Assembly: GCA_964035545.1 (NCBI GenBank)
Contig: OZ037767.1
Location: forward strand, 11,513,081-11,577,080
Source: Bugula neritina
Taxonomy: Eukaryota > Bryozoa > Gymnolaemata > Cheilostomatida > Bugulidae
DNA length: 64,000 bases
Direction: 5' to 3'
Under the pieces are notes generated by a model. That model saw only the letters and a program-made list of their open reading frames with translations, searched no databases and was not told the DNA's origin. Each line of letters opens with the position of its first letter. The first letter of the stretch is position 1. The translations under genes and the position numbers were made by a program. Positions 209 through 63,014 of this stretch are shown here, piece by piece.

Positions 209-3200
209 GTGATGCAAAGGAAAAAATTGAGATTTCTGATGTCACTGAGCACACAACTCCTGGTAGCAGCTCCAGCGTGGCTACTTCTACCATGTCAGCT
301 CCCACTACCTCTAGTGTGGCTAATTGTCACCAACAAAATCCTTCAGTATCTGTGCCACCTTCTGGTCAACGACCCTCAGCACCTGGTCAACGACCATCAG
401 CACCTGGCCAACGACCTTCAGCACCTGGTCAACGACCTTCAGCACCTGGTCAACGACCTTCAGCACCTGGTCAACGACCTTCAGCACCTGGTCAACGACA
501 TTTAGCACCTGGTCAAAGACCTTTAGCACCTGGTCAACGATATTTAGCACCTGGTCAAAGGCCTTTAGCACCTAGGCCAAGATTTTTAGCACCTGGTCAA
601 CGATATTTAGCACCTGGTCAACAACACATGGCTTTAGATCAAAGACATATGGCTCCAGGTCAAAGACATATGGCTCCAGGTCAAAGACCACTAAGGCCTG
701 GTCACCGATTTCCCGAACCTAGAGACAGATTTCCTGAACCTGGACATAGATTTTCTAGACCTGGACAGAGACCCTTTGCTTCTGATCCCAGAGAATTAGA
801 CGTACATTTACCCGATGTTGATCAAGTGCCGGCCGCTGTAGCTGAGGTTGCTAAGGTAAGAGACCCTTGGTCGTTTCACTTTCTGTGCCCCCTTTTTTGC
901 TCTCATTGTGAATTTACTATCTGCTCTGTTGCCATTGTTATCTCTGCGATCTTTGTAGGCCCTGTCTGGCCGCCAACACGACTTGATTAAACAGGCTACA
1001 ATGAATCTTCAGAGAACGGGAAATCTACCTCCTAGCTCGGTAAACTAGTTACTCGTGTATCTGTGTGTACTACTTTTTGACTGAATTAGTGGACTCACTG
1101 TGTAGATCTCAGTTTCACATTGTGGTTACATGATGTTGTTTTTGGGCCTCTTTAGGTGCCTGATGAAGCAGAAGGTTACGATGAGTGGGGTGATCAGGAC
1201 GAGCAATATTATGAGTGAGTATTAGTTTAATCTTTACATTCTTTTTTCAACTCCTGCTTGCATAGTTATTTCAACATATGAATTTTAAACTCAATTTTGT
1301 GAAGCTGCCTTTGTTTTAGTTATATTTGAATTTTGGTTCACAAGGCCTCTCATTATATTCCCCAGGGATGAAGATTACCAACCTGATCCTAGAAGGAGAA
1401 ACCTCCTCACTATGGAGGACGGTTATGAGCCTCGGGAGCGACATCCTCGACTACCACCAAGACATCACTTCCTGTACGACCATCTTTTTAAGTTAGACAA
1501 AAATGGTTGCTATTTTCTCTGCTACCCAAGTCTACACCAAGCTTGTTCTGTGTTGTAGGGATGACCCATATGATGCATTCGAAGATCACTATGATGACCC
1601 GTATGACAGGTGGGGGTTATCTTCTCGTGATACTTGATTCTGGTTTTCCTTGTCGCTATTTACTCTCCAGCTTTTCATTTATCTTATTCTTTTAAAAGCA
1701 TACTTTAACTCCAGGTACGAGGCCTACAGGCCTGAGGCTAGATATAGGAGACCACGACCCCCACTCTACGAGGATCCTTACTACGAGGAGGATTACTATC
1801 CACGACGCAGGGGGCGTGGCCTTCTCATGCCTGAGCCGTTTCCACCCAGATTGCCCGAAGATCCGTATGAGTAGGTTGTTGTATTATAAGAGAAAATAGT
1901 TTTTTAAAGTGTTGGTTGTATTCTATTCCAAAGTGCTTGTTACCTGGCAGCTCTTGGAGTAGCTAATGTTTGATTGAATGTGTTTCTAGTGATCCTTTCA
2001 GAAGACGTCCTGCGCCTATAGATCCGTACGAGCGACACGAGTTGGCACGGGAGGCATACAACCGCGAGAGATATGCCCAGGAGTCGCTGGACAGAGAACC
2101 TTTGATGCGGGGCCCTCTGAGAGACCCGTACGAAGACGAAACTGCACCCAGGAGATTTCTTGGAGACGGTCTAATCAGCCGAGCCGATCCGGAGATCATA
2201 GATTACTCACACAATCCTTCCAGGGTCTCTTCTGTGTTAGGAGAGTAAGTATAGCCTTTATTCCTTATGTTGGGAGAGTAAGTATAGCCTCTGTTCCTTA
2301 TGTTGGGAGAGTAAGTATAGCCTCTGTTCCTTATGTTGGGAGAGTAAGTATAGCCTCTGTTCTTTATGTTGGGAGAGTAAGTATAGCCTCTGCTCCTTAT
2401 GTTGCGAGAGTAAGTATAGCCTCTGTTCCTTATGTTAGGAGAGTAAGTATAGCCTCCTCTCTTTAGTGTTCTTTATGCAGTGAGGAATTACAACTTCACT
2501 TGTTTAATCCAGAGCATTTCATTACAACCAAGACACTATTATCTCAACAAATTTAATTTCACAGCTACTGTGAATTGTTTCATTTCATGTTTTACGTTTT
2601 TATGAAAGACTGCATCTCACTGTTGTCAAAATGCTCTGCTGACATGTCTGCCAGACTAACAGATCTCTAGAACCTGCATCAATGTCTTCAACACAACTTA
2701 AGGATGGCCACCCGTTCCTGTCTCTGTTTGTGCTGCATTGGTGTCTAGACGAGTCATCTAAACACAAGTCGCGACCCATGAGTTCCTGTCAGAGTATTAA
2801 CTGCTATCTCTTCGGTTTCTTAGGGTTAACAAGGGTAGACAACTGCCACCCAGTTTCAGACGCGCTTCTCCACCTCCAGGTTTCCGAGAAAGGTCACCGA
2901 TCAGACTAAATAACTCTTCGTCTCAGTTACCTCAAGCTAGACCTCCAGGTAAAGTTTATCAACTCTTTACGAGTTTTCTATGTTGGCCATTACAGTTTCA
3001 CAGTTTTATTTTGAAGGTAGTGCTGTGACCCATCATATTTTACATTAATGCTAACGTATACTGGTAAGTGTTACCTAGCAACCCCTCCCTCCACTCATAC
3101 TAGTAGTTAAAGACTGATGTGCCTGAATATAAGTTGTAACAGGTTTAAGATTTAAACATATAAAAGTTGCCTCATGTATAAATTCTAACAGTTAGAATAT

Positions 3201-6200: not shown

Positions 6201-6799
6201 CAATTTTGTTTCTATAGTTACATCTGAAAGCATTTCTGTTTTACTGCTGCAAAAAGGGAAAAAACTAAGCTAAAAGTAAAATGGAAACTTGGTTCTCAAA
6301 GAGTAGGCTCTTTAAATAGTAATCAACCTATTACATCACATCGGCAGACACTTTCCGCACTGGCCTGGCCATTCAGCATTTTCACCGCATGACATCAGCA
6401 CAGAATGGCCAATTTTTCTGCTTGCGCGGATTTTCGTCATTGCAAAATCCGTCTAATGTGGCCATCTGCTGTAAGTCCCGTGTATGTATATGCACTACTA
6501 TAACTCACTTGTATGTATATGCACTACTATAACTCACTCGTATGTATATGCACTACTATAACTCACTTGTATGTACTCTGCTGTAAGTCACACATACTAC
6601 TGTCTGCTACTAAATTGTGTATCATGTTAATGATTCCAGAAAATAGCTGTACCCTCTTACCAAAGCTCTGTCTCTCTGTAGATAATAGATAGCTGGGAGG
6701 AGACGCCATCCTATTTCCATAAAGTTGACATGAGAGGATTACTCCAGGATAATGCCATTGATGACGTGTGTATTACTTTTCAGTTATCAATACATACTG

Positions 6800-17735: not shown

Positions 17736-20700
17736 TTAATTAAAATGATCTCTCACAGGTCTGTGTATAGGTGAAGGAGTATTATTGTGTAGAGAGGTTG
17801 TGGATTCAGACAGCACACCCTGTAGACTAGAGACCCTGTCCTGTAGATCAGTCAGTATATTCATACTGTGACTCTTAATTCCTTCCATTGAGTTCAGATG
17901 TCTTTGCATCTGTTCCTGCATCTTCTTCCTGAAGAATACAACAGCTCATACAATACTACAGCTCATATAATACAACAGTTCATATAATACAACAGTACAT
18001 ACAATACTACAGTTCATATAATACAACAGTTCATATAATACTACAGTCCATACAATACTACAGTCCATACAATACAACAGTTCATATAATACAACAGTTC
18101 ATATAATACTACAGTTCATACAATACTACAGTTCATACAATACTACAGTCCATACAATACTACAGTCCATACAATACTACAGTTCATACAGCACAACAGG
18201 AACCCGGACGAAGGAAAGTTACTTAATGACTCCACTATAAGAAATGAGACATCTACCATGTTTCCTTTCCTGCTGTGACGGTTCAAAGCCCAATATTAGC
18301 ATGTTATTCTTCTCCACAATGATATAATATGTAGCTAAATAATATACATATCAATTTGGTTTCACACTAAACCTATGATGACGAGATTAAAGTAGAGGAT
18401 AGCAAGACGCCACACCCACCTTATAATTTCCTGCTCGGCATCCAATTTACGCCGGACTGAACCCGTAGAAGGAGGTTTTCTGGGAGATGGGGTTTTGGTC
18501 TGAGAACTACCAGTCCAGCGACCATCCACTTGTTTTGAATGTACCTGAAAATGTAAGTACATCACACAATAAGTACGTCACAACGGAAGTACATCACTCA
18601 GTAAGTATATCACAATGTAAGTACATCACAATGTAAGCACCTGAAAATGTAAGTAGGTATATCACAATGTAAGTATATCACAATGTAAGTATATCACAAC
18701 GTAAGTATATCACAATGTAAGTATATCACAACGTAAGTGTATCACAACATAAGTATATCACAATGTAAGTATATCACAACGTAAGTGTATCACAATGTAA
18801 GTAAAACAAATCACAAACTTTCTAATTATAGGTGGCAAAATACTCCGTGAATATTCATATTTCTAATCCCAAGACACATAGCCACATTGATCATGACACA
18901 CATTAGCAACTCTGCGGGCGTATGCATACCCTGCCCAAGTTCTCCTTCAATGACATCACTTCATTGGCTATGAATGCCTTTTGAGCTCGAAGTTCATCCA
19001 ATTCGCTTGCAGCTTCAGCTCGAGATTTCTCTAACTCTGCCATGCCCAGCGTAACCTCCTATCAACAGACGTGTGTACTTGAAGTTAAGACCTTCTAAGT
19101 TTAAATGATGTGGCGCAGAATACATCCTATAGTGTTAACTATAGTGTAAAATGATTGCTAATAATTCCTATACATGCTTAAAAAGCTGAATCAAATTGAG
19201 TGCACTGAGTACAACCAACAGTGCAAAACATGGTAAATGAAATGTTCAGAAGTGTAAAATACATGAATTATACAATTTTTTAAAGTCAACTGGCAGAAAT
19301 ACAATCACATTTAAAATACTAATAGCTTCCAAATATTGACAATTTTAATTGTCAACTCACTTAAAGGACATTCATATAAATTGAAGCAGAGAAAACTTTG
19401 CATAAGAAAATGTGTAGAAATTGTGACAGGTTTACCGAAAAATACAGATATATATAAAAAAAACTAAAAATATGTCTTCTTAAAGGAAATTCTTGTAACA
19501 GAGTAGCCAAGTTGAGTACCAGTTGAGTAGCAATAGGCAAGGCAAAGCTTGCTACATACTGAATAAACATTTGACACTAGCATGTACCTAGAGTTTATAA
19601 CTTAAATCTCTAGCACCAAACAGCAATGACAGTCAGAAACATGAAACTTAAAAACTACGGAATACTGCATGATAAAACAACTCACCTGCTGAATATCATG
19701 CTTCAGATTAGAGATGGTTTCAGTGAGTTTAGAGTCCTTGTTGGTCTGAAGCTCTAAGGTCACCACCGTTCTTTTCAGCACCTCCACCTGGTCTCTGGCC
19801 GCTGCCAACTCGCTGTTGAGTCTATCAGCTCTCTGGGAGTGCTGCTGGGCAATCCACTCCAAGTCTTCCACCTCTACTTCGCGCTTACCCCTCAGTGCCT
19901 TACACTCCTGCAGTGAACAGAGCAGTTAATTGAAAGTAGAACTATCAGATAATGTAGAAACAGGGCACCTTTACAACATGCCACCAACTGTATCTGTACT
20001 GGCAAACACTATAAACATTATGTAGATTTCAATTACTATCCTGGAATTTGTAAATGCATTTGATTTGTGTGTATGACATTCAGTGGCTATTTTATGTGTC
20101 ACACATAACATCTGACAGCTACTCTATGAGTGACACATGACATCTAACAGCTACCTTGTGTGACATACGTGACATCTGACAGCTACCTTGTGTGACACAC
20201 GTGACATCTGACAGGTACCCTATATGTCACACATGGCATCTGACAGCTAGCCTATGTGTCACACATGGCATCTGACGGCTACCCTATGTATCACACATGA
20301 AAAGATAGTATCTGGGGCACCTGCTTGACTTGTGACAGCTCTTCATTCAGAGAGCTGATGTGATCATCTGATTGTTTCTTGACTTTGGTGAGTGAATCAT
20401 TTCTTGTCTGCAACCTCTGGGCAAACTCAGTCAGTCTCCTCATTAAATCTGCATTAGTTGTTCTTTCACTCTCCAACTCTGCATCTGCATTACAATGCAA
20501 TCCAATTATACCAGCAACCTTTGAGTCTCTCTTAAGCATACAAACCAAGCAGTAGAAATTAAAACTAGCAGCTACATATACAAATCAAACAAATTTTAGA
20601 ATTTTCAGATCCAAATCAAACTTAAACATATTGACCTTAAATAATATTTATGATTGCATACTAGAGATAAAATCACAAGATGGCATCACATTGATAGATC

Positions 20701-23700
20701 TCCAGTTAATATATAATCTATTATACTACACGGTGTAATTGAAGCTATGAAACTATTGGAGATTTCAGCTTTCCCAACTCTTCGCATATGTCTAGATCTA
20801 CTGTAATATATTAATTCTATCAAAACCCATGGTAAAAATTATAAAATATTCTATGCCAAATTTGAATAATTTCAAATAATAGTAACAATGATTTCCAGTT
20901 GTAATTTAAATCTCAAGATTAAGAGGTAACGGAGGGGGGAGTGCTTACCCGTCTGCTCCAGTTTAGCCCGTAGCTGCGTCAGGTCACCGTGCTCTTTCCT
21001 GTTTTTGTTAATTTCAGACATGAGCCGCGAGAGCTCCCTGGTCAGCTCACCGACTCTGGTTTGACAAACTTGCTGCTGCCCTCTAAGGTGGGACAGTTCT
21101 CTCTCCGCCCGCTCTGTCAACTGTTGGAACAGAACACCAACTAATCACCTTCATAACACAGCTCTAACTGGTGTTTGTAAACTCTGCTTGAAAATGACTT
21201 TCACAGCAGCATTCAGTCAAAGTGATAGTAACACAGCTATGGTATGGACCACATAACATGGAGTATTCACCACTCAAAGAAAGTACCGTGTGATAACATG
21301 GAGTCATCTGTAGTACACAATGCGAGGTACACACTCACATCTGATAACTGTAGTACACAATGCGAGGTACACACTCACATCTGATAACTGTAGTATATAA
21401 TGCGAGGTACACACTCACATCTGATAACTGTAGTGTACAGTGCGAGGTACACACTCACATCTGATAACTGTAGTACACAATGCGAGGTACACACTCACAT
21501 CTGATAACTGTAGTATACAATGCGAAGTACACACTCACATCTGATAACTGCAAGCTCTCTCTGTCATACTGGGTCGCCAGATCTTTCAAACTCTGCTGTC
21601 GGTCACTTCTCTCCTCATTCAACCTGCTGACATCTTGCCGGAGTTCAGCTGCCGCTACCTGCTGTTCACTGACCTCTCCTTTCACCTCTCCCAGCCTGTG
21701 ACAGACATGAGATTAATATCTTCAAAGGACATTCAAAGACTAATGGGGAAACAACACCCACTGCACTACTGAATCCAGTTCTCCCTCCTCCCTCATCACA
21801 AGCATGTAATAAAGAAGGTTCAACTATTTTAGAGACACTCACAAAGTGTTAATCTGCTGATAATCATATCTCAGCTGGTCCAGCTGCTGCTCCAAGTCTA
21901 ACTTCTGTTTTTCTGTGGCTTCACATTGCTAAGGGGAAATAAGTGTAAACTGCAGTTCATAGAAGCTCTGGCTAAGTAAAGGTACAAAGTGTTAGATTGG
22001 ACTTTGGAATTTGCATTTATTTCAAAACCAACTGCTATGAACACAGAAAGCTCAATGCCTAATTTAAAACTAACGGTGAAAAATTTACCAAATTATTTTT
22101 TAAAATGATTGAAGCATTTTTTCAGCAGATTACAAAATATCATATTTAAAAAGAAAAAACCAAAGTCCGGCTTCCTTATAGTGAAACATAACCTTCACAC
22201 TTTAACAAATATATGTAGATTTTCAAATACTGAAGTATAACTAAATCTTACAGAATATAAAGCAGCTTTCTTAGCTTCCATGTCTTTGAGTATTTTCTTC
22301 AGTTTAGATGCGGCTGTCCGTTGGTCTACAACAGATACAATAATAAATATATGGCACACAGGCTAGAGTTCAATAATCATTCTTTTGTTAAAGAGAAATG
22401 ATTTAAAGACTGAAAGTATAAAATAGCTCTTGTACTTTGGTTATCAACTAGAGCTAACTCTCTAACAACTATAAACGGAGCACTTTAACGGACTGACAGT
22501 AAATTATACTAATTACTATCAAGTAACTGAGAGTGAGTTACACTGTTTACTATCAAGTAACTGACAGTGAGTTACCCTGATTACCTTTGAGGGACTGACA
22601 GTGAGTTACACTGATTACCTTTGAGGGACTGACAGTGAGTTACACTGATTACCTTTGGGGGACTGACAGTGAGTTCCACTGATTACCTTTGAGGGACTGA
22701 GAGACTGACTGGAGTTCTGACTCACAACTCGTTTTCTCAAACTTCGCGTCGCCAACTTGAGACTGAAGCTGTTTGAGTTTATTCTGCAGCTGCTCACACT
22801 CTGATGTCTTCTCTCGAATCTGTGACTCGATACTCGATTGTGTGTTAGACATCTCTGTCACAGCCGCCTGCATGTAGAAAGATGGTTTATAAAAATATCT
22901 TTCTGCAAGCAGTGTGAATTATCAACGAGTCATTCAAACAAAGTGTTGAATCACCAACCCTTATTGTCATATCATGACTCGTACAGCACTGAATGGAAAG
23001 CTAACTTAATGTTACAATATGTTCAGCTATTTGTGCAAAACTATCAAAACCAGATACAACTTTTGCTGTAGTCTGTAAAATTATGAAAACCTGTAACTGC
23101 AAGATGCATTTTATCTGTAGGTTGCTGCATTCTACACAATATTGGAATAATGTGTTGTGTTGTAGTATATATTATAAAGTTTCATTTTAAGCGTAGCACA
23201 CAAAATGAACATAATGTCTATAATTATTATAAAATTATTATAAAATTAATTTATAAGCATCAGCTAAATTTTCTGTTATCAAAAAAATGAAAAGTAGAGA
23301 CTAACTACTGGGGGATGAGAAAAGCAACATTCAAAGAGAAACAGGAGAAGAATAAAACAAGGGAAGGAGAGCAGATATGATATGTTAGTGACCTTGTTCA
23401 TCTCCACCTTCCTGTTAATCTGATCAAGTTCTGCGGACTTCTGACCAACGGCTCTACTCACGGAGTCCTTCTCCAGTCGGAGTTTCTCAAGAATTGAGCT
23501 GGCGGAGTTCGTTTCAAACTAATCACAGGAAATGGAGAGCAAGTAGCAAAGAGGTAAGCATAAAGGGAAGCTGAATTAGAACCAGAAAAGCACACAAGCC
23601 GCACACCAACAAATAAACACATTCACAAGTCTAGAAAATGCACAAGGCTGTGACAATGTATGTTGAGTTATAGTAGACAAGCATAGTATATCAGATGAGC

Positions 23701-26700
23701 AAATGCTATTTGAAATGAATTAAACTCAAAAACACTTAGGGCATTTCAAATACTACATTCTGGTAATTCTATACTCTACACAAAGCTATGTCCATATAAA
23801 CATGTTTCATCCACCTGAGCTGTGAGCTAGACATACAGTCCAGCTCTCTATATTATGTACAAAGTATTGATGGACAAGTCAGTTCCAAACAGTCAGCCTA
23901 CCTCTAGTTTATCTAGAAGTTGTCTTCCTTCAGAGTGTTTGGCTCTCAACTCATTGAGCTCTCCTTCAACCAGATTCGACTCAGCGGTGAGCGACTCCAG
24001 CAGACACCGTCGCTCCGAGATTTCCCGCAGAAGTTCAGCGGACTCCGCCCGGGCCGCAGTCAAAGACTTCTTCAGCACTGACAACTGATCTCTACAACAC
24101 AAGACATGAACAACAATTTCCAAAGCATAGAGAGCAGAACATGTGCAAATCTTCAAGCCATGTTTGGTATTTCACAGGTACGCACTCTTTCTGTTCTGTA
24201 GCAATAGTCAACGTTTGTAGAGCCTCTTTCTCATCCTCAATCTTGTCCTTGACCTTCTCTAATAACTCCTTGCGATTCTCCAGCCTCTCTTTCACCTCCC
24301 GCTCTAGAGAACTCATGGAGCTAATTTCTGTGCGCTTTTCCTACAAAATGGTCATCATTTGGTGAACCCAGTCCAGGGGTGCTGCCAGTAGACTAGCCAA
24401 TCAGGTTACAGCGTTACAGAGCTCAAAGATTAACTGCATGTAACTGATTAATGTAACAGTTTTGAAAATATTTCTCAGCATTTCCCAGAGCATCAAACCC
24501 AGGATACTACATGATGCACCGTCAAACACTTTACAACTCAATAGCCCCTGTAGATGTTTCAGTAAGCAGCATACATGCTACCATCTGTTATGCAGTACAC
24601 AGCACACACACATTAGTTATGTTGCCAAGCAACAAGTAAATACTATATTATTGTGTTGCTAGACAACACTAACCGTAGTTAACAAGCTGCTAGTACTGTG
24701 CACATTGTTAGGAGGTGTGTTTTTACTTGGAGCCACTGTAAGTCATATTATCAGTTGATACACAGCATCACAAACCCACTATCGTTGTTGCTAGGTAACA
24801 GCGCGTACACACACCACCTTAGGTTGCTAAGCATCAACACTTTACCTTCAACTGTTCAGAAACAACCTTGACCTCGGACTGCAGGCTACTTAGAGTTGTC
24901 TTCTGCTCTCCTGACTGAGTTTCAAGGAGAGAAAACTCTTGCCTAGCAGTTCCAAGGTCAGTGTTGAGTGCCGTGAGTTGTCCCTCTCGCTCAGATAACT
25001 GAAGAGATCATTGCGAGTGAAAGGAGACAGATAATACTAACTATCTATAATACTAACTATATATAATACTAACTATCTATAATACAAACTATCTACAGTA
25101 CTAACTATAATACTAACTATTTACAATACTAACTATCTATAATACAAACTATCTACAGTACTAACTATAATACTAACTATCTATAATACTAACTATCTAT
25201 AATACAAACTATCTACAATACAAACTATCTACAATACTAACTATCTACAATACTAACTATCTATAATACTAACTATCTATAATACAAACTATCTACAATA
25301 CAAACTATCTACAATACTAACTATCTACAATACTAACTATCTATAATACTAACTATCTATAATACAAACTATCTATAATACAAACTATCTATAATACTAA
25401 CTATCTATAATACTAACTATCTATAATACAAACTATCTATAATACTATCTATAATACTAACTATCTACAGAACTAGCTATCTATAATACAAACTATCTAT
25501 AATACTAACTATCTATAATACTAACTATCTATAACACTAACTATCTATAATACTAACTATCTATAATACTAACTATCTACAGTACTAACTATAATCCTAA
25601 CTATCTATAATACTAACTATCTACAATACTAACTATCTACAGAACTAGCTATCTAATAGTTTGGTGTCCTTACAGACATAGAAACAGAAGTCATACAAAA
25701 TTATCGTCGAATTACATGACTACCTCAACTTTAGTTACAGGCTAACAGTATAACTGGTTTCGAATGGACATGGCTGTGTAAGACTATGAAATCGCTAGCT
25801 TGAGCTACAGCAAGTAATGATCAGTGTGCTTTGAGTCTGTTGGGTTGGGTAGTGCATCAACAAGTAAAGAAAATGCATAGAAAGTTTTAAGTATACCTCT
25901 TGATTTCTATTGAATAAAATTGCTGTTTTAAAACTTGAATTACTTACTACTGATTTGATATCTTTAATGTCCCCATAGTGTTCAGACAACTCCAACTCAC
26001 TGTGACGAACTGATGCTAAGTGACGCTCCGCTTCTAATTTAATCTCATGTAAGTTCTGTTCAGCATCGGCTGTTTGTTTCCTTATGGCCTGTTGTAATTC
26101 TGTTAGCACCTGATGACACACAATGACAAGTCCTGACACAGTAGCAAGTGATGACACACAGTAATCAGTAGATCATGTTTGCCCAACTATTGCTATCATT
26201 CTGAAAAAAAGTTATGCTAGCAGCGTTTTATCATATTAAAAGCCAATCATTTATCTGTCATGAAAGGCTGTAAGTTGCCAAGTATATTCAAAGACACAAA
26301 GTGACATTAACAGCTGCTTACACTCTCCGACTGTTGAATTTGCTGAGTGAGGGTATTGAAGTATGCATCCCTCTCTTGAGTAACTTCTTCTATTCTGTCT
26401 ATCTGCTCCTGTAACGTGTCTCGCTCTTCTGTCAACTTCTTACCATCAACCATCAGCTGGGCCACTTGTCCTTCTCTTTCTGTCTTATTACCATCTAATA
26501 ATAATACCCAAACCTGTCCTTACAGTTACTGGTTTTGTAAATTTATAAACAGGGAGTATTTTATTAGACACATATGAAAGATTTGGTTCAATTGGTGGAT
26601 TAGGTTTGTTCCAGTTAAATTAAAAATTTAATGCTTCATTTTAAGCTACTAACTTTTTCATTGTCATGTCAAATTTATATGAGTATATATTACTATTATA

Positions 26701-29700
26701 ATCTACTGTTGTTCACTGATTAGTTCTAGTGCTTAAGAATACGATCTTATTGAAGGTTGACAGTTTAAAATAACTACCAAGCCCGTGTCTAGCCACTCAC
26801 CCAGCACCTCCAGCTCTGTCTGTACGGAGTCCAGCTGCTCCTTAACTAAATCATACTGACCAATCATCTGCTCAGCTTCGTCTTTCACCAGGTCAAGACT
26901 GTTTCTACATTCAACCAATCGACTGTCTGCTTCTCTTAGCTCCGCCCTACGCTTAGCAAGAGTTTCTTCTAGACAATGCAGTTCCGTCTGCAGCAGGAAT
27001 AAGATAGGATCTGACAATTAGTAAATGTGCCTTTAACATACGCATTACAACTAGCGCAAAGATAAATGCAAAATCAAGAAAATTCAAATACCCACTGATG
27101 AAGCCACAGATAACAGTCTGCTATAACTGACCAATCAGTGGCCAACTTACATTCATGTAGTGGTCAATCTCGGCTCTTCTCTCCTCGTTTTCCGTGTCCG
27201 AGTCACCAGCGCGTCTCCGCTGACCTTTCTTCAACCTCCAGTTACTCTTCAGAGTGTCCAGCTGCTCCCTCTGCAGGTTGATGGCCAGATCCAGACTCTC
27301 CAGCTCACTCCTCCGTTCCTGTGGTCACGCATTCAGCCAATCACAACCAGCATCACATTCAACCAATCACAACCAGCATCACAACTTACCACATACATAA
27401 ACCTCACAGTAGTGTTTCAATCATAGGCGAGAAATAAATGTTTTAGATTGCATTGGGTTTTGCCAGAACATTTCAATTGGCATATAAAGAGTAAAAGCAC
27501 ACAAGTTGGTTGAGATTAAACCTCTATAGTCATTCGAAAGTGCCAGATGTATAGCCGATCACCTTAATTCAGCATAGAGGATGACAATTTTACAACCTTA
27601 TACAAGAATGTTGACAGACGTCAATGTTATCTGTTATCTTCATGTAATTTACGTGAGAAAATAAACCTTTTATCTCGAAGAAAGTATTCAATGGTGACAC
27701 AAATAAGCTAAAGCTATACTGCTACACGCCCTTGACCCTTTACCTTCAAGGCGTGCTTGAGTTCGGCAGCAGCTCTACTCTGATTGGACAGTTTCCTTTC
27801 TTCTTTTCGGTCAGATTTGCTTTCTTTGAAAGAAGTTTTCATGTCTTTATATTTTTCCCTCAGTTTTGAATACAAATCTTCCTACAAGGAGAAACAAGCA
27901 TAAGCAACACGACCTGAAGCAAGGCAAACCTCTGCACACTACACAGTTGACTACATACAAACAAGGAAATGTCCACCAGGATGGCAGATGGCATATAAAC
28001 TATAATTGAACACTTTGACCCAAATGTTAGCAATAGAGGGAGTTCTTACCAGGTGATGATGTTCGGGGACGGTGCACACCAAACCGCTAGATTCATTAAC
28101 CTTGAGAATGCCTCTCACAGGAGTTGTAGACGTGGAGCCGTTGAGCACCACAGTTTTAGTGGGGGTGGAGTTGCTGGCCATTGTAACAACGGGAACTGTG
28201 TCAGCTGGCACTAAGGCTATGGTGGGAGGGGCTTGTACACCTGCAGTGATTGGAGTAAGTTAGAAGAGGTTACAGGCTAAATGAAAGAGGCTGCCATGTT
28301 AAACTATCTACGACTATATATTATACACAACTATAAGCAGCTTACTAACCTGTCTGGTGATAGGACGTCTGGGGACCAATAAAGTGACTAGCATTTTGTG
28401 TAGCAACACGTGATTGGACAGGATAGGCAGAAGGCTGGCTTACAGAAATACCAGCTGAGCTCGCTGGGTTGACCTGGTAAACTGGAGCAACCTGGTTAGG
28501 TGGGTTAGGCTGGTAAGTTGGTAGTGAGTAGTTAGACTGCATTGCTGGGTTGATCTGGGCAGGTATTTGAGGCGCCGTATGAGTAGCGGCCAGGTGTCCA
28601 AAGCCAACTACAAACCATGTGTTATGATACAAACAAACCACACACTGCTATCTAATGTTAGCACAAACCACACTTACAGCAAAGCTTACTCAGCTGTGAC
28701 AAGATAGCAACAAACTTAGCAAATCTAAGACTCATTGTCTAAAGGTGCAGACTGAGTCAGATTTTAAATAAACTAAAAAAATTGAGACAGAAAAATCAGT
28801 TCTCAAGACCCAAGGCTAGATCATATGTTGAGTTGTGTTCTTGCAGTTGAGCAAACGACCACTGCCCAAGTGATTTAGAGCAATGCGAGTGTAGTATTAG
28901 TTGGCACTTGCATAGAGCTGTCAGTCAACATAGAGACAGCATTCAGCTCAAACACTTTTAAAAGTTAGTTTCCAAATCTCTCATAAACCTGCTAAGCCTG
29001 CAGAGAGAGGAGTGTATTACACTAAGCAACGGCCAACTTTAAAGATGAAAACAAATTCTTATAAGAAACGTAACCCAGACAACTCACCGTGCTGAGCTGC
29101 TGCCTTGTGAGGAGTAGATGTCAGCATGTGACCTTGACTTGTAGGAGTGTCTCCTAATTGGCCGGGTCTGAATGACGGACCCTGTACAAAGCTATTTGAC
29201 ATCTGATCGTAGCCTGTATTCTGCAGAGACTGGTGCGGGTGGCTGGCGGATATAGTAGACAGCGGTCCAGCCTGCTGCATCCCACCAAGCAAACTGTTGA
29301 TTCTTGCTCTCTCTTCTTCACTGTAAAAATACAGAAACATATTGAAACAAACCAAATATTTACCCGTTATTGACAGAGGTAATAGTTAAGTCTAGAAAAG
29401 TTAGAAGACATAGACTAAATTAAATCTGGCCAGATAAAACTTAAAGAACATGGAGATTAGCAAGCAACCTCGTCAACCTAATGTTCCATCAGCCTGTACA
29501 CATGGGGAGCCCCGGACCAAAACATAGGTGCCTGAGAACTTACCCGAATTGACTTTGACTGGCCAAGAGCGCGGCTAATCTTTCCACTTCCTGTTTGTAT
29601 TTGTCTAGTTCATTTTTAAGCCAATCAGTTTCATCCTTCTGCCTGTTAATAACTTCCTCTGCGTCATCTGTCCGCCGCAGCGTATCATTGAGGTTTCTAT

Positions 29701-35700: not shown

Positions 35701-38700
35701 AATTGGGAAAGAAGTATTTAGAATTTGAAGCACACTTGATGCAAGAGCGAAAGAGATAAATACAAGAAATTGCCTAGCTAGTTGTTTGATATGTGACAAA
35801 AGAGATATCAATTATTGGTACTACTCTTATGACTGAACTTTTCCTGAGCATTTATCAAGTAACAAAAAAAGCTGCTCTGTTCCAGTATGAAGTCACACAT
35901 GTGCTGCTGAATAGACTTAACCCTGTAGGCAGCTGACACATTATAATTATCCATACTTCAAAATAGGGTACCTTTGAGACACGCATTTTACCCTCAATGC
36001 ACATCTAGACTGTAGTCTACAGAAGCAGTTAACATTGTGTGTTGCTTAGTTTTACTAATATATAGTAACTAGCAGCTTTATGAGAAAGTACAAGTAAAGT
36101 TATATTAGCCAACATAGTAAATATTGACAAAGGGTCAAATCTGAATAACTTGAAACAACTACAGACTCACACTTACAGCTACAGTAACAACTGCACGTTC
36201 ACACTTACAGCCACAGTAACAACTGCACGTTCACACTTACAGTTACAGTAACAACTACAAGCTCACGCTTACAGCTACAGTAACAACTACACACTCACAC
36301 TTACAGCTACAGAAACAACTACAGACTCACACTTACAGCTACAGTAACAACTACATGCTCACACTTACAGCTACAGAAACAACTACAAGCTCACACTTAC
36401 AGCTACAGAAACAACTACAGACTCACACTTACAGCTACAGTAACAACTGCACGTTCACAGTTACAGCTACAGAAACAACTACACGCTCACACTTACAGCT
36501 ACAGAAACAACTAAAAGCTCACACTTACAGCTACAGTAACACCTACAGACTCACATTTACAGCTACAGTAACAACTGCACGTTCACACTTACAGCTACAG
36601 TAACAACCACAAGCTCACACTTACAGCTACAGATGGAGTGTCAGGTTTCTTGTGTAAACTAGTGAACTTAGTATCAATCTTATAGAAAGCCAGTTCCTGC
36701 TCCAACTCATAGTGCTTCTGATTGGCTCTGCTTAGCTCCGCCTGCTTCCTGCCAATCATCTCCTCCTTCGCCATCAATTCCGCTCGCAGATCCTTTATTT
36801 TACGGTCATTTTCCCCTTTTACAAGCAAATAATAAGATTTTCAATAACTGCGTGTGGACAACACGTAGAAACTTGGACACGTAATTATTAAAAAACCGTA
36901 TATAAAAAAGGTACTGAATCTTATCATAATTTGGAAAATATGATCACAAATCACAGCAATTCTGACAGTTTAAGCTACTCACTCTAGTAGAGTGAGTAGC
37001 TTAAAAAGTCAGATTTGCTGTGACTCTAGATTACTCACCATTCACTCTAGAGTACTGACTATTCATTCTACAGTATTCACTACTCTACAGTACTCACGAT
37101 TCACTCTGCAGTATTCACTATTAACTCTACAGTACTCACTGCTGACCCTGACGCGCTGACTATCGTTTTGCTGACTACTTTCCAGGTCCCGCAATGACTT
37201 GTCGTGCTCCTCTTGCAGAGATTCATACTTGCTGCGTATTTCATAGACTTCTGCATGCAAGGCTTGCACCTCATCTGTACAGAGAGTAGAGGAAAGGTGA
37301 ATTGAAACTGAAAACACATCTGATAAAGAAGTTCCATTCGTGTGATAGGCTTTGGTACAGACCAATTGATCAGTAATATAAACCAATACAACTCTGGCTA
37401 AGTTATATAACGACAGCTAGTTTATAGCCTTGCAGAGTAAAATCTGTGTTCTCTACCAGAGTTGTCAACTTTATCTCCAGCAATACAGTGACTCACCCTG
37501 ATCAAACCGTCTGTTGGCCTCCATGCGTTCTTCTGAGGTAATTCTACGCCCATCCAGGACGTCGAGGCTTTGCAGATGAAAGATGATATAAAGCCGGTAG
37601 TGAGGTAAGTCGCACAGAGGGTTGTGGGCTATGCTGAGGAATGTGAGGTTGGCTAACCCCCTCAACTTTCTTACTTCTTGTAACTAGAAGAAATCGGTCA
37701 TATAATCTACACACTGAGGGTATATAATCTATACACTGAGGGTATATAATCTATACACTGAGGATATATAATCTATACACTGAAGATATATAATCTAGAT
37801 ACTGAGGATATATAATCTACATACTGAGGGTAGAACAGAAGACTGTAAAATGCTAACAAGAGCTCACTTACTGATTCAATACTGTTAGACGCAAGACGTA
37901 GATTTCGTAGGGACTTGAGTTTCTTTGCTATCCAGAGGGGTATTGTCTGGATCTGATTGCCCTCCAAATTCAACGTAATCAGGTTAGATAGTTTCTCTAG
38001 ACCTATAAACCAAACAAACTAGATTATAATCTTAATTCTAACATTAGGATTGGCTTCATCAGAAGTTATATCACAAAACATTTCATGCAAAATAATGTTA
38101 AAACTTAAAAATTGTTTGTGAAAGCTCATTTTTCATTGAACACCCTTTTGCATAAAGAATATTTGTGAAGTTTACTCGGTTTACTCAACATAAAAGTATG
38201 AGCATATAAATATTAAACCTGTAACAAGAAACAGGGCAATTAATGCAGACATTTCAAAGGTATAAGTAAGCTGGTTGATGCATCTCTCAAATTTTCAAAT
38301 GACATAATTCGTTTTTTATCTACTTTGACGTTAGATATAATGTCTAAAGACCTCTATAGAACAACAGCACACATCATTAACACTCCCACAATGCTTCACA
38401 CAAGCAACAACAGATCAGTTACAACTTCACCTTCTATTTTAGTGATATGATTATGTGACACATCCAGGTCCTTTAACTTCTGCAATGATTCCAGACGCTC
38501 TAGTCGCTCAATAGAATTATGAGCTAAATTCAGTGTATGCAGTCTTTTTAACTTATCAAGATTTTCTATCACCTGAAAATATACAAAACCTGATTAAACT
38601 TAGAACAACTTATTCCTGGCTACATAATTAGCAGCCCTTCATAAATGTCAAATCAGGTAACAAAGAAGTTTTGTATTGGTAAGTAAATATCTAGGAAAAA

Positions 38701-39227
38701 GTTCAAGTTTTACAATTGGTATATAAAATGAGCTCACTCTGATTTTTTTGCCGGAAAGCTCCGAATAGTTGAGTTTAAGAATAGTGATAGAGTCGAGTGG
38801 AGTGTCCCTGACTGTGTTTTTGATGAGATCTTCAGACAAGTGACGGACTCCTTTACAGAAACCAGACATATATGAAACTAGTGCAATGCAGCCTAGACTA
38901 ATAACATCTCATCAAACATCACTGAGATGACAAGGGTTACTTTACTTCATTTAATACCCACTGAATATCTTGACTTTTGCTTATTTTATAAAATTCTGGT
39001 TGTCTAAAACTAATGAAATGCTAGAAAATAAAACACAACAAATGAATATTTTTAAATTCCTGAATTTTTAGTTAAATTCTTAGTAATAAAAAATGATTTT
39101 CGTGATCAAAATTTGTACTAAACACAGTAAAATAACCCACAACTAAATTCATAAGAAATGACTCACCACTCATGGCCCTTTGAGGATTTATCTGCCCTCC
39201 TGGGCGAGCAAGAAAAGAGTCTGGCAT
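17736..39227 (-). CDS. CNTRL: Centriolin homologue, 43 coding exons, nearly complete
   Basis: Coiled-coil scaffold of the mother centriole's appendages and the midbody in vertebrates. Exons in transcription order: 39227-39167, 38850-38738, 38572-38431, 38002-37872, 37683-37497, 37274-37140, 36815-36625, 35580-35422, 35239-35036, 34893-34756, 34573-34544, 33742-33583, 33204-33017, 32708-32637, 32428-32306, 31942-31658, 31327-31122, 30797-30588, 30373-30228, 30062-29887, 29716-29544, 29320-29088, 28607-28350, 28240-28050, 27881-27744, 27318-27151, 26987-26801, 26494-26322, 26109-25948, 24998-24846, 24340-24186, 24091-23902, 23518-23393, 22867-22687, 22325-22252, 21928-21843, 21695-21539, 21120-20949, 20484-20321, 19907-19686, 19058-18930, 18544-18420, 17928-17736 (TAA). 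All junctions keep phase, giving about 2288 residues (human about 2325). Domains: LRRs about 21-205; coiled coil to about 1077; P/Q/S/T-rich hinge about 1077-1304 ending VPEHHHL; coiled coil to about 2225. Family signatures seen: GVRHLSEDLIK, YELEQELAFYKID, SPYIGKS, CLEETLAKRRAELREAD. The ATG at 39227 is the first available in frame, but an acceptor-like AG lies 10 bases upstream, so more N-terminal exons may exist. Confidence 0.93.
17940..18195. repeat. 17-18-bp repeat (acaatactacagttcat) before CNTRL last exon
   Basis: About 15 imperfect copies of catacaatactacagtt / catataatacaacagtt lie directly upstream (minus sense) of the last centriolin exon. The repeat enters the polypyrimidine tract, but the AG at 17929-17930 belongs to a unique tail. 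Confidence 0.85.
18541..18800. repeat. 16-bp array (gtaagtatatcacaat) with duplicated CNTRL acceptor
   Basis: About 15 copies of a 16-bp unit lie upstream (minus sense) of exon 18544-18420. The acceptor segment itself, acttacattttcag in minus sense, occurs twice, with AG at 18546-18545 (used) and at 18642-18641, 96 bp apart. On the + strand the units show repeated GTAAGTA, which is antisense to the gene. Confidence 0.85.
20090..20290. repeat. Imperfect repeat (gtgacacacgtgacatctga) in CNTRL intron
   Basis: Six or seven degenerate units of 31-34 bp, each with catctgacagctacc and a tgtgtcacac core, start about 30 bases after the donor of exon 20484-20321 (minus sense). Confidence 0.75.
21309..21551 (-). 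repeat. 40-bp tandem array spanning the CNTRL exon 37 donor
   Basis: Six copies of a 40-bp unit. In transcription sense each has cagttatcagat, identical to the last 12 exon bases, followed by gtgagtgtgtacctcgc. Donor G positions are 21538 (used), 21498, 21458, 21418, 21378 and 21338. Confidence 0.95.
22500..22699 (-). repeat. 34-bp tandem array spanning the CNTRL exon 34 donor
   Basis: Four good copies of a 34-bp unit, each containing the end of the exon (cagtccctcaaag) and gtaatcagtgtaactcac. Donor G positions are 22686 (used), 22652, 22618 and 22584. A degenerate tail continues to about 22500. Confidence 0.93.
25025..25660. repeat. Long array of ataatactaactatct units in CNTRL intron
   Basis: About 630 bp of 13-16-bp units (actatctataatactaact, with aca and caa variants). 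It stops about 35 bp upstream (minus sense) of the acceptor of exon 24998-24846. No splice site is included. Confidence 0.9.
28050..29320 (-). other. CNTRL: Low-complexity P/Q/S/T-rich hinge of centriolin
   Basis: Exons 29320-29088, 28607-28350 and 28240-28050 encode a non-coiled-coil linker of about 227 residues rich in Pro, Gln, Ser, Thr and Asn. It separates the two coiled-coil halves and ends with VCTVPEHHHL, which matches the VPEHH motif at the same place in vertebrate centriolin. Outside that motif the linker looks unconserved. Confidence 0.8.
30445..30606 (-). repeat. 33-bp tandem array spanning the CNTRL exon 18 donor
   Basis: Five copies of a 33-bp unit. In transcription sense each has ccagaacagtggtagagt, the last 18 exon bases, then gtaagtatatctgta. 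Donor G positions are 30587 (used), 30554, 30521, 30488 and 30455, and all five keep GTAAGT. The frame reaches TAA inside the donor, and the 33-bp period repeats this stop. Confidence 0.95.
31990..32197 (-). mobile_element. tRNA-derived SINE remnant
   Basis: Read on the minus strand from about 32197, the segment starts GGTAGCCATGTTATAGTGG, continues TTAGAGCACCAGCC (D-arm/anticodon-arm-like, box A region), then GGATACAAGTCC (degenerate box B) and a body with GAGGAAGGGCATC, a string I recall from many tRNA-derived invertebrate SINEs. It lies inside a centriolin intron. Mutated boxes and no clear 3' tail suggest an old, inactive copy. The exact 3' end is uncertain. Confidence 0.55.
32450..32590. 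repeat. Imperfect repeat (ttatacagctatatctacac) in CNTRL intron
   Basis: Five imperfect 25-28-bp units (acatgttatacagctatatc, with variants) sit just upstream (minus sense) of exon 32428-32306. The unit does not include the acceptor. Confidence 0.75.
32953..33025 (-). repeat. 22-bp tandem array spanning the CNTRL exon 13 donor
   Basis: Three copies of a 22-bp unit. In transcription sense each has cattgcag, the last eight exon bases, then gtatagtgagagct. Donor G positions are 33016 (used), 32994 and 32972. Confidence 0.9.
36168..36635 (-). repeat. 32-bp tandem array spanning the CNTRL exon 7 donor
   Basis: Fifteen copies of a 32-bp unit. In transcription sense each has tgtagct, the last seven exon bases, then gtaagtgtgagc and a ttgttac segment. 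Donor G positions run from 36624 (used) down to 36176 in steps of 32. Most keep GTAAG; a few are GTAAAT or GTAACT. Confidence 0.95.
37020..37146 (-). repeat. Degenerate 20-23-bp array spanning the CNTRL exon 6 donor
   Basis: About six units with core agtgagtactgtagag (transcription sense) start at the exon 6 boundary. GTGAGT occurs at 37139 (used), 37097 and 37038; other units have GTGAAT. Phase shows that 37139 is the donor: the nearer GTCAGC at 37146 would break the frame into exon 7. Confidence 0.85.
37497..38850 (-). other. CNTRL: Leucine-rich repeat block of centriolin
   Basis: Four exons (38850-38738, 38572-38431, 38002-37872, 37683-37497) encode SDS22-like leucine-rich repeats and the cap. 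Visible: LNYSELSGKKIR, LHTLNLAHNSIERLE, LKDLDVSHNHITKIEG, LITLNLEGNQIQTIP, LRNLRLASNSIES and FLSIAHNPLCDLPHYR, followed by the LRR cap HLQSLDVLDGRRIT. The order and the KKLKSLR segment match vertebrate centriolin closely. LRR blocks of this type usually bind proteins; the partner cannot be read from the sequence. Confidence 0.88.
37690..37830. repeat. 22-24-bp repeat (tatataatctacacactgag) in CNTRL intron
   Basis: Five or six units (ggtatataatctatacactg and variants) lie directly upstream (minus sense) of exon 37683-37497, ending about 20 bp before its AG. Confidence 0.85.
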
Positions 39228-39239
39228 GCCGGCACCCTA

Positions 39240-58900: not shown

Positions 58901-60076
58901 AAATAAAACAGATCAACACTGTATCGGGGGATAAAAATATTGATCATTTTTTAAGCTGTCCAAGCAAAAATTTTCATTATAAAGTTGCTAAATGTGTAAA
59001 AACAAATTGGGGCAAAAACAGTCAAAAGTATTTATCTATATCATAACACCCTACATAGGCAATGTTAGGATATTTTCAGGGTCAAACTGATAAAAATGAT
59101 TAAGTTGAAATTTATTGGGTTTTGATCTAGTTTTAGTCATAGTTTTATCTCAAGAGGGTTGCTCTGCTATTATACTATTAATTTGACTGAAATCTGCCAA
59201 AGAATATAACAAATTACCCATACAATGTTACTGTTGTCATAGAAATGGTGCAAATGGATGGTATTAGTGGCCAGTTATAGTAGCCAAGACAGAAAAGCAT
59301 AGCATTACGCTGTGGCGGCAGACGTCATGCAATCTGTACTCTAACCTTCATCAAACTACTTGGGCCACTAATGTAACTTGAGACAAATATCTTTTTTTGT
59401 TTTTTAAGTAAAAAGTTGTATAGTTGAAATACTCAGTATAGAGCTCAAATGGTGATTTTAGCCTACTTCATTTTTTCATTCAAGCCTTTTTCTGCTACCA
59501 GCAGTTGGTAGGCCTCAGTGTTCAGGTAGTATGCTTTTACCAACTATCACATGTTGACAACAATAAAATGTTGCCTCTACAGTTCTATGCTCAACTACAT
59601 TACTAGTTACTACACAACTATATCAGACGGAAGGCCCAGTGTAATATAAATGTTGCTCAAGATAATAGTTGAGAGCACTCCTATTGCCTCTTCTGTTTCA
59701 GATATCGCTGTTATTCAAATGCTATTGCCGTCAGCAACTAATGTCCTTTATAAATTATAGACTTTTCAGCAATGCTTAACTTCGAAAATCTTTTTTATAT
59801 TTAAACCCAGGTTTTTACATTCAATAGCATTGTGTGCTGTTCATCTAGCTGCTCTACAACATAAGTTATATGGCCATGTGATGGTGTAATAAAATCCTCT
59901 CTCAGTTCAGGTTACAAATTGTTGTAGCACCAGTTCGTTTATTTTGGTTTTTACTCGTAGGCTGTGAGATTTCTGGCTGCCGACTATGGTCATACTAAGG
60001 GTAATGGTGAACCGATAAGATCTCACATGACCTGTGTTTACTAAGTATTCACAGACGCACAGACAGACAGACCAAG

Positions 60077-63014
60077 ATGCCTCCACCAGACGTGTCCCAG
60101 CGAATTAAGGAGCTGGAGGAACTGTATATCGGTGGAGTACTAAACTCTGATCACCAATCACTGAGTATAGAGACTCTGCTAGACATACTTCTAGTGCTCT
60201 TTGACGAATGTCAAGGGTCCACACTGCGTAGAGAACGAAATGTCAACGGTTTCCTTACCTACGGTACTTATCAGAGCAGCTGTTTTGCTCTAGTATGACT
60301 AATGAAACAGGTAGCTGGGTGTTCATGCCCAGTTAACACTCTTCACTTGCTGCTTGACAACTATGTATGTTAGAATGTAAAGATTTTTGTAAATTTATTC
60401 ATGCAAACTCCTGGGGTTATGTAAATGATAATCTATTTGTATTAATAATTTCCTGAGCCCTTTATGTGCCACCGCCTCTACATTTGATAGCAGTGTTTGT
60501 TTTGAGATGAGAAGAGGTAACGCAATCTTATTAATCCAGCTTCAAGTTTTATTGGCATGAACTGCAAGCTCATTGTGAATGACCTATTCTATATTTTAGC
60601 TAAAAAGGTGGTGGAGAAGGTGAAACACTATCGGTTATCGAGAGACGATTTCGATACAGTGAAAATCATTGGGAAAGGTGCTTTTGGCGAGGTAGCTGTG
60701 GTTAGGGCCAAGGCCACCGGTAGAATTTATGCCATGAAAATCCTTAATAAATGGGAGATGCTGAAGCGGGCTGAGGTGCGTATATATGTGTTTGGGGAAG
60801 CCTTGGCTATCAACTAAACTCACTCAAACACTCTTGCGCTGATGTAACATTGACGAGCACAAGTCAAGGACCTGACATATAATTGGCAGGTAGTTTCTGG
60901 TTTCTCTCGCTCTTGCGTCAGATATGCCATTTTCTAGTTGAATTATTTAAATGTTGCAGACGGCTTGTTTCATGGAGGAAAGAGATGTGCTTGTGTTTGG
61001 TGACAGAAGGTGGATCACTAACCTGCACTATGCCTATCAAGATGAAAACTATTTGGTAAGGGAATTACTGGCTGAGTGAGTGAGTCCAGTAGTGAGTGAC
61101 TAAGTGAGTGACATATTCAGTAGTGACTGGGGGTGTAGGTAGTCAGTGACTGGAGAAGTCAGTAGTAAGTGACTGAGTAAGTGACTAATAGAGTGAGTGA
61201 CAGAGTTAGTTGTACTGAGTGAGTGAGACTATAGATATACTAATGCTGCTAACTGACTGAATAGTTCTGCTTATTGTATAACACATCAGTTAATGAACTC
61301 CTCTACTGAATACCTTTCTATATGATGGCTGTACAGCTAGCCACTTGACACACCGACTTCACCTACACAATGCTGTTATAATAGCTTAGGCCAGTGTCAG
61401 CTGTAATGCCACTGTATTAGCACAACACCAACTCTCGTGCTTCAGTAGCTACAACAGCTTATCATTTTGACTCACTAATTATTCCAATCCACTAATTGAT
61501 GATGAAAAGTCATCACCGGTTAGAAACTGCTGTTGGACAGGAAACAGACAAATGCTGTTTACCTTTCACTGAGAGGGTGACTGTGCAGTCAGCACCTCTC
61601 ACAGTTGATCATAAGTCTCACATTAGTGTAGCTATCATTTATCAGTTGGCAATATCATCACCGTGTAGATTTGTAGATTGTGGGGCTTGGTTCACCTAAT
61701 AATAGTGGCATTGTGTACAACATAGGGGAGCATGCTGTTCTATCAGGCAGCTGTCAGGGTGCAGTCTGAATCACGTGTCAATATGACTAGTAGAGTTTAC
61801 TTTCACTTCCCTCTTACTACGGCACTCCCTACTCTCCCACTCTCTACTCTCTCACTCTCTATGCTCTCTCACTCTCCCCACTCTCACTCTCCCCACTCTC
61901 ACTCCCCACTCTCTACTCTGCCACTTTCTACTCACACTCTCTACTCACACTCTCTCACTCTCTACTCACACTCTTTCACTCTCTACTCACTCTAACACTC
62001 TACTCTCTCACTCTCTACTCTGCCACTCGCTACTCACACACTCAGTCACTCTCTACCCACACACTTTTACTCTTTGTTACTCACACACTGTTCTGAATTC
62101 TTATTACAAAAGTCATATAATTTACTTTTCTCCTTCAACCCAAATTGTGGCTGACTGACTGCTTGACTTTGAGTCATCACCTGGTTATGACTTACTCAAC
62201 AGGTGTAGCTTGAAACTGTTATATTAAAGCTGAGTGAATGGCTGGGTGCAGTAGTCACTCTGAAAATGGGTGTTCAATGTTATACAACACTACCCACGTT
62301 ATGATGTGTACATTCTTGTAATACAACCAGTACCACTATTATATTCCAAGTTAATACTATATTTAACTAGCATTCATCATACCTACTAGTAAATGTTTCT
62401 CATTTTATACTACAGTCATAGTCTTTCTGTAAAATAGACTTATTGTGACCTTATTTGTTTTTGAATAAAAACTGCCTACCCCACACATATTACAGTACTT
62501 ACTGTGTATGTTACAGTACTTACTCATGTACTTACTATGTATGTTACAGTACTTACTATGTATGTTACATTATTTGCTCATGTACTTACTGTGTATATTA
62601 CAGTACTTACTATGTATGTTACAGTACTTACTCATGTACTTACTGTGTATGTTACAGTACTTACTCATGTACTTACTGTGTATGTTACAGTACTTACTCA
62701 TGTACTTACTGTCTATGTTACAGTACTTGCTCATGTACTTACTATGTATGTTACAGTACTTACTCATGTACTTACTATGTATGTTACAGTCCTTGCTCAT
62801 GTACTTACTGTGTATGCTGCAGTACTTACTCATGTACTTACTATGTATGTTGCAGTACTTACTCATGGACTACTATGTTGGCGGAGATTTACTTACACTG
62901 CTGAGTAAGTTTGATGACAGACTGCCAGAAGACATGTGTGTCTTTTACATTGCTGAGATGGTCTGTGCTATCGACTCTCTGCATAGACTAAGATATGTTC
63001 ACAGAGATATAAAG
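60077..63014 (+). CDS. CDC42BP: MRCK-type kinase (CDC42-binding protein kinase), N-terminal part
   Basis: Serine/threonine kinase of the DMPK/ROCK/MRCK family; MRCKs act downstream of Cdc42 on actomyosin. Exons: 60077-60263, 60600-60775, 60960-61055, 62856-63014; phases agree and give 206 residues. The pre-kinase segment ([36 protein letters not shown]) is characteristic of MRCK. Then come the glycine loop GKGAFGEV (residues 87-94), catalytic Lys109 in [16 protein letters not shown], hinge [16 protein letters not shown] (from 154), and catalytic HRDIK ending at residue 206. The Mg-binding loop, kinase C-lobe, coiled coil, C1, PH, CNH and PBD domains must lie beyond the window; nothing resembling the next exon (expected PDNILLD) is present up to 64000. 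The ATG at 60077 is chosen because it begins the MRCK-like N-terminus directly. Which paralogue (A, B or G) cannot be decided. Confidence 0.92.
61060..61235. repeat. gagtgagtgac repeat after MRCK exon 3
   Basis: Imperfect tgagtgagtgactaagtgag units start about 14 bases after the donor GTAAGG at 61056. The region holds many GTGAGT and GTAAGT strings, but the exon end itself is not repeated. Confidence 0.75.
61800..62060. repeat. Polypyrimidine-rich ctcactctctact repeat
   Basis: About 260 bp of C/T-rich units (ctctcactctctactcacac) in MRCK intron 3. It is strongly strand-asymmetric, purine-rich on the minus strand. Confidence 0.85.
62485..62867 (+). repeat. 33-bp tandem array spanning the MRCK exon 4 acceptor
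   Basis: About eleven copies of a 33-bp unit, each with tactgtgtatgttacag then tacttactcatg. The true acceptor AG (62854-62855) and the first 12 exon bases are part of the unit; earlier AGs sit 33 bp apart at 62822, 62789, 62756 and so on. The kinase frame is open through the array back to 62508, so upstream acceptors would insert multiples of 11 residues. Confidence 0.95.

Follow-up and report, generated by a model that had tools for sequence, protein, structure and literature searches.

Minisatellites that span exon-intron boundaries in Bugula neritina form a dense set, about as frequent as random placement of units in short introns would give

Introduction

How does a splice site come to lie inside a tandem repeat, and does its presence there mean that splice sites give rise to repeats? 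The question is raised by a 64,000-nucleotide stretch of the bryozoan Bugula neritina (GenBank assembly GCA_964035545.1, contig OZ037767.1, positions 11,513,081 to 11,577,080), here called the window. A preliminary description of this DNA listed nine unrelated minisatellites, at seven donors and two acceptors, that straddle an exon-intron boundary and copy the splice site.

The preliminary description knew of no named phenomenon of this kind, but one exists. In amphioxus, the available portions of two papers describe mirages, in which a 5' or 3' intron/exon boundary is duplicated in tandem after the manner of a minisatellite and the splice signals are copied, with units of 10-72 bp in Adh3 (PMC3087553, PMC3902484). 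According to the first, mirages differ between haplotypes, seem not to interfere with splicing and occur in Adh3 and in the globins BflGb6 and BflGb9 (PMC3087553); the second adds PGBD5 and cites troponin C (PMC3902484). No estimate of the chance rate of mirages was found in these portions of either paper. Like the mirages so described, the window arrays are tandem copies of boundaries with their splice signals at several loci; unlike them, they number seven in 64 kb plus two in 80 kb of flanking DNA, lie mostly at donors and belong to a 216-Mb genome. Boundary-spanning minisatellites are therefore already described and named in lancelets, and it is the density here that is notable, the kind being known.

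A repeat across a donor has also been reported in human CBS, where the accessible part of the source gives a 31-bp VNTR, c.1444_1467+7(16_21), of polymorphic copy number (PMC2630376). By this name its unit holds 24 exonic and 7 intronic bases, so that the donor is copied as in the donor arrays of the window; unlike these arrays, the VNTR is a single locus with alleles of 16-21 copies. For IFI6, the title of a reference entry speaks of a minisatellite supplying multiple donors (Turri 1995, in PMC4526556). Whereas those repeats, by the title, give donor sites in the transcript, the window copies would mostly break the frame if used. Earthworm metallothionein minisatellites (PMC12783039) and human repeats in segmental duplications (PMC2812944), as the sections available present them, are less close than mirages. 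Unlike intron gain by tandem duplication, which yields new introns, the window arrays multiply the edge of an existing one. In such intron gain, tandem duplication of AGGT-bearing sequence reportedly copies the splice signals. An intron created by tandem duplication within the gene has been proposed for potato RdRp (PMC4974935).

Methods

The analysed assembly comprises 215.8 Mb in 295 contigs, with about 33-36% GC in the sampled parts. Genes were predicted with a purpose-built gene finder that uses codon usage, splice-site weights and a phase-consistent path; it started from window exons picked by eye and generic splice weights and was retrained on the window and two 100-kb blocks. The set used for statistics held exons with a score of at least 6, with window edges 36625, 37140 and 21120 shifted by phase, calls beyond 61 kb excluded and the kinase exon 62856-63014 added by hand. 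Arrays were located with Tandem Repeats Finder (TRF), and an array was counted as a strict straddler when it held at least 5 exonic bases.

Straddles were compared with two nulls. In the uniform null, each array was placed evenly within its own intron plus 20 bp; in the founder null, the intron was shrunk to one unit and the unit put at random. Comparison regions were 80 kb of flanking DNA and two distant 100-kb blocks (C1, C2), the latter picked solely by round coordinates. Tandem triplets of a word were searched in the whole genome on both strands as three occurrences with gaps of 8-38 bases.

Results

Gene models and exon edges

The gene models of the window hold 77 exons and 73 introns (Table 1). 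In the first pass of the gene finder, the claimed base was an exon edge at eight of the nine sites, 37139 being missed; the retrained version displaced 37139 by 7 bases and 36624 by 14. For these two sites, the positions in the preliminary description are the ones with a continuous phase chain.

Table 1. Arrays, gene models and flanking straddlers, in window coordinates
Feature	Position	Strand	Description
Array at donor 2245	2235..2456	+	33 bp, 6.7 copies; first unit 10 exon bases + GTAAGT; GTAAGT in 7/7 copies
Array at donor 37139	37023..37140	-	degenerate, 21/59 bp; starts at donor
Array at donor 36624	36154..36632	-	32 bp, 15 copies; 8 exon bases + GTAAGT; GTAAGT in 12/15
Array at donor 33016	32954..33025	-	22 bp, 3.3 copies; 9 exon bases + GTATAG
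Array at donor 30587	30447..30605	-	33 bp, 4.8 copies; 18 exon bases + GTAAGT; GTAAGT in 5/5 in-register copies
Array at donor 22686	22483..22700	-	34 bp, 6.4 copies; 14 exon bases + GTAATC; GTAATC in 4/6
Array at donor 21538	21308..21550	-	40 bp, 6.1 copies; 12 exon bases + GTGAGT; GTGAGT in 6/6
Array near acceptor 18545	18550..18803	-	16/32/48 bp (TRF)
Array at acceptor 62855	62495..62878	+	33 bp, 11.4 copies; ends across acceptor
Centriolin (CNTRL) gene model	17819..39236	-	42 exons, 2,255 codons; stop-free, phase continuous; leucine-rich repeats, then coiled coil
MRCK (CDC42BP) kinase exons	60600-60775, 60960-61055, 62856-63014 (span 60600..63014)	+	match to MRCK beta
Coding exon ending in 2245 array	1990..2244	+	gene model
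Flank donor straddler	69393-69545, donor 69404 (L021:5393-5545, donor L021:5404)		kinase gene; 22-bp unit, 11 exon bases
Flank acceptor straddler	-23813 (L026:6187)		29-bp unit, 14 exon bases

Judged by its sequence, the large minus-strand gene is centriolin. Its first 376 residues match 65 proteins with an E value of 1e-10 or lower; among the best matches, those with names are vertebrate centriolins and an Octopus centriolin-like protein (46% identity over 85% of the query), many weaker matches are other leucine-rich-repeat proteins, and the model has a Pfam match to LRR_9. Junction 37140/36815 is gap-free in the centriolin alignment with six homologues, and the residues ESPYI, invariant in all seven rows of the alignment, stand shortly past junction 36625/35580. 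The kinase exons, joined over the array-bearing intron, match MRCK beta without gaps across the junctions (E 5.4e-69). Edges 33016, 30587, 22686, 21538 and 18545 were set purely by phase and coding score. The gene at 2245 is, going by a motif, presumably YLPM1-like; a Pfam search with two of its other exons returned no match. The window's first gene also contains an exonic 21-bp repeat (362-771) that encodes SAPGQRP-like heptads, an in-frame coding minisatellite.

Anatomy of the arrays

All nine sites in the window carry a tandem array by TRF. Seven of them are strict straddlers, six donors (2245, 21538, 22686, 30587, 33016 and 36624) and one acceptor (62855), and at each at least 8 exonic bases lie inside the array, so that the unit spans the exon-intron boundary as it does in mirages. 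Two further traits of mirages are present as well: GT or AG splice signals recur in many of the copies, and both 5' and 3' boundaries are represented, the flanks adding one donor and one acceptor. The two remaining sites fall short of the original claim. At donor 37139 a single exonic base lies inside the array, and the donor motif is nonetheless copied. The array near acceptor 18545 holds no exonic bases, ends 5 bp from the exon and resembles the acceptor in one upstream copy only; its units contain ACTTAC on the coding strand, which we take to be a branch-point-like word.

Inspection of the sequence shows the donor repeated in register at six donors and the acceptor likewise at 62855. For the latter, TRF counts 23 exon bases in the array, and 12 stay in register over eight successive copies, two of which have substitutions. 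The copies read TTACAG or TGCAG and then TACTTACTCATG. In the last copy, TACTTACTCATG, preceded by cag, is the kinase exon itself, translated as Y-L-L-M-D against Y-L-V-M-D in MRCK beta. Because YLLM belongs to a kinase segment that is conserved and is also part of the unit, the exon came first; to judge from these residues, the array was copied from the edge of the exon rather than the exon from the array.

The arrays are separate from one another and include the splice site, as the preliminary description held. A single spreading repeat family was rejected: among 36 pairs of the nine units, 11 reach p <=0.05 in a comparison whose unit doubling counts shared motifs twice, and the best pairs share, by eye, a donor-like motif. 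A coding minisatellite is likewise ruled out, as homology and phase place the exon ends at the arrays.

Most copied donors are intact, as had been stated, for example at 2245 and 36624 (Table 1). Mismatches to the array consensus affect 5 of 212 positions in copied donor hexamers and 70 of 980 in other columns (P = 0.007); a second tally gives 5/216 for donors, 22/392 for exonic parts and 53/584 for the rest of the intronic parts. The high identity of copies mostly reflects the youth of the arrays. Youth alone does not predict the dip at copied donors, which is suggestive only. At six of the seven donor arrays, splicing from a later copy of the donor would run into a stop or shift the frame; only in the 37139 array, taken at 21 bp, would later donors add whole in-frame multiples, as far as the fourth copy. 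At acceptor 62855 the reading frame is open upstream to 62469. Of the earlier suggestion that redundant donors are tolerated or selected, toleration of spare donors fits these results, and the stops and frameshifts count against selected redundancy.

Frequency of straddles

Boundary-spanning arrays are a true and dense set, and random placement of units in introns this short would yield them about as often. Permuting array positions within introns, part of the check proposed in the preliminary description, favours an excess in the window under the uniform null (7 straddles among 30 intronic arrays against 3.42 expected, P = 0.038) but not under the founder null (4.48 expected, P = 0.13). The assertion that slippage does not predict arrays at splice sites is thus not borne out: random units of 20-40 bp in introns of median 325 bp give 4.5 expected straddles, and the flanks give the random rate.

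Taken by side, the founder null for the window leaves donors in excess (6 against 2.24 expected, P = 0.018) and acceptors at 1 against 2.24. At other thresholds (score 50, score 100 and stricter exons) the donor P values are 0.027, 0.009 and 0.007, and with the two distant blocks added to the window the value is 0.051. The centriolin gene alone has 5 donor straddles among 13 arrays, against 1.42 expected (P = 0.008). Since the window was chosen for the pattern, its P values are optimistic, and the donor excess itself is weak. Composition was tested as its cause and is not supported: in 90 array-free introns, the 30-mers that straddle the donor resemble arrays scarcely more than those from the interior do.

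Beyond the window, the flanks (80 kb, 65 introns) hold 2 straddles among 20 intronic arrays, with 1.62 expected per side (both sides, P = 0.92), a count made without a GT-rich low-complexity array and an array in a predicted terminal exon. With these two kept, 144 kb contain 8 donor and 4 acceptor overlaps among 53 arrays (donors P = 0.051, both P = 0.11). The distant blocks have no straddle among 9 intronic arrays in 114 introns. Pooled over 144 kb, 7 donors and 2 acceptors are straddled by 51 arrays, against 3.88 expected on each side (donors P = 0.079); the 9 straddles against 7.8 expected (P = 0.36) fit a random founder.

The earlier estimate of about one intron in nine is close to the 7 of 73 found in the window; elsewhere such introns are rarer (2/65 in the flanks and 0/114 in the distant blocks; window against 2/179 elsewhere, P = 0.003). 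Counted per intronic array, the window has 7/30 against 2/29 elsewhere (P = 0.15), so the window is a rich spot in part because more arrays lie there. Array density (score of at least 60) is 4.0-5.6 per 10 kb in the window and its 80-kb flanks, against 14 and 11 per 100 kb in the distant blocks. Arrays also crowd toward exons: 20 of 30 intronic arrays in the window straddle an exon edge or come within 40 bp of one, where 11.6 would be expected (P = 2e-4), and the tendency is not clear in the flanks (9 of 20 against 7.2, P = 0.21). In one distant block, a predicted intron is taken up nearly edge to edge by 41 copies of a 21-bp unit (L002:7710-8567; C1:5017710-5018567).

These arrays are probably mirage-type minisatellites, with founder units placed at random with respect to splicing in short introns. 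Set against a random founder are the weak donor excess in the window and in centriolin, the crowding of array edges near exons and the low divergence of copied donors.

Orientation of donor words and possible selection

One alternative is selection: sense decoys within introns would be purged, and arrays whose first copy is the true donor would be harmless or mildly useful. This seems rather unlikely, and it is compatible with a random origin, so that both can hold. It draws on orientation. In 144 kb, the arrays with at least three GTRAGT words comprise 6 in sense, all at true donors, none in sense elsewhere and 7 in antisense. None of the antisense arrays is a donor by that motif, the one at 22483 straddling a donor through another motif. 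Sense GTRAGT words away from donors lie in arrays in 0 of 36 cases, against 6 of 36 antisense words with that array dropped (P = 0.025), in a test that is post hoc, has small numbers and may reflect a preference of the gene finder for exons ending in sense donor arrays. The lower divergence of copied donor hexamers agrees with selection, but with later donors mostly giving a stop or frameshift, a benefit of redundancy is not visible.

The first 12 plus-strand GTAAGT arrays listed on C1, where calls are weaker, were examined as well. In one, the best path of the gene finder has the array begin at a sense donor (L031); in another, the first donor is best by single-exon score and the best path uses a later copy (L035); in a third, the sense exon scores 9.9 and is off the best path (L040). 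Six are antisense to the predicted gene, three within 25 bp of an acceptor (L029, L034, L037) and three further away (L032, L036, L038), and three are uncalled. In antisense the word reads ACTTAC, which is similar to a branch point, and arrays near acceptors may copy such a branch-point-like element.

A broader form of this idea holds that the splice machinery marks minisatellite evolution, in that sense donor-word arrays would survive only where the first copy is the true donor and copied donors would be kept near consensus. We regard it as unlikely.

Array composition and possible seeding by donors

A further alternative is seeding by splice donors: local duplication would be raised by the donor sequence itself or by a process tied to RNA or R-loops where the exon ends. 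It finds some backing in the donor excess of the window and in the C1 sample, with its one sense-donor start on the best path and two by single-exon score. Trinucleotide content predicts 3.45 array units with GTAAGT among 95, where 9 contain it (rank 6 of 914), and tandem GTAAGT triplets number 24,099 in the genome against 682 for the reversed pattern, a 35-fold difference. The reversed pattern is a poor control, as reversal destroys GTA and AGT. GTATAG, a non-splice word of equal composition, is a better control, if only one word; its tandem triplets number 40,831 against 3,820 reversed (11-fold) and are 1.7 times commoner than those of GTAAGT genome-wide, in counts made per copy, so that long arrays weigh more. 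GTAAGT nonetheless exceeds its reversed control by more than GTATAG does, and as a single word in 344 kb on both strands GTATAG is slightly commoner (320 against 266 for GTAAGT); both points count against reading the GTAAGT triplets as part of a general bias.

Array composition is biased more generally. The trinucleotides GTA/TAC, CTA/TAG, GTG/CAC and AGT/ACT are enriched 2.8, 2.1, 2.05 and 1.9 times, and by clusters per occurrence in 344 kb GTAAGT ranks 25th of 2,838 words (complements ranked apart), behind AGTACT, GTACAG and GTATAG among others. Minisatellites of the GTA/TAC type are abundant in the genome, for example at window positions 46505-47362 and 9371-9917. The sampled region C2:15000001-15006600 (L011) presumably holds a Gypsy-like retroelement, with stretches that resemble reverse transcriptase and integrase.

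GTRAGT words, moreover, are not amplified preferentially at donors. Of single words, 47 are donors, and outside arrays there are 36 other sense and 30 antisense; 6 of the 47 donors lie in arrays, against 7 of 37 antisense words (P = 0.55, or 0.76 without the array at 22483). Nor does the excess overlap that would accompany splice-site-seeded birth appear outside the window, where the flanks have 1 donor straddle against 1.62 expected and the distant blocks none. Seeding by the splice consensus, as the preliminary description had proposed it, is not supported by these comparisons, and donor seeding as a whole is quite improbable.

A gene-model or assembly artefact, with false exon edges or misassembled arrays, is very improbable: the models are ab initio, three window edges and one exon were set by hand and four of the seven straddled edges have phase and coding score as their basis, with no homologue across, but the 42-exon phase chain is open, homologues run gap-free over two array-bearing junctions and scattered substitutions distinguish the copies.

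Discussion

The reading of these arrays as mirage-type minisatellites with random founders suggests a simple course of events. Minisatellites in which GTA/TAC, CTA/TAG and AGT/ACT words abound arise often in this genome. To found an array, a segment of 20-40 bp would be duplicated in tandem wherever it happens to lie relative to splice sites; unequal exchange or slippage would then lengthen the array. With introns this short, a share of founder segments would land across a boundary. Where the founder lies over a donor, the first copy would preserve the reading frame and presumably be the one used; over an acceptor, it would be the last copy. Exon definition may leave the spare copies silent within the intron, and arrays extending deeper into the exon would alter the protein and be lost.

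The weak donor excess in the window and the orientation pattern may form a residue beyond random placement, and the orientation, a post hoc observation, is the more interesting of the two. The window provides a dense set of minisatellites across exon-intron boundaries, in genes whose homologues are clear, together with a simple null that was absent from the first reading. If the pattern of sense arrays only at donors fails, the arrays represent ordinary minisatellite turnover in short introns. If it is true genome-wide, they would allow decoy donors, exon definition and the movement of intron edges to be studied as a natural experiment. Should the splice machinery indeed mark minisatellite evolution, boundary arrays would keep providing spare splice sites throughout the genome and could let introns shift or arise anew.
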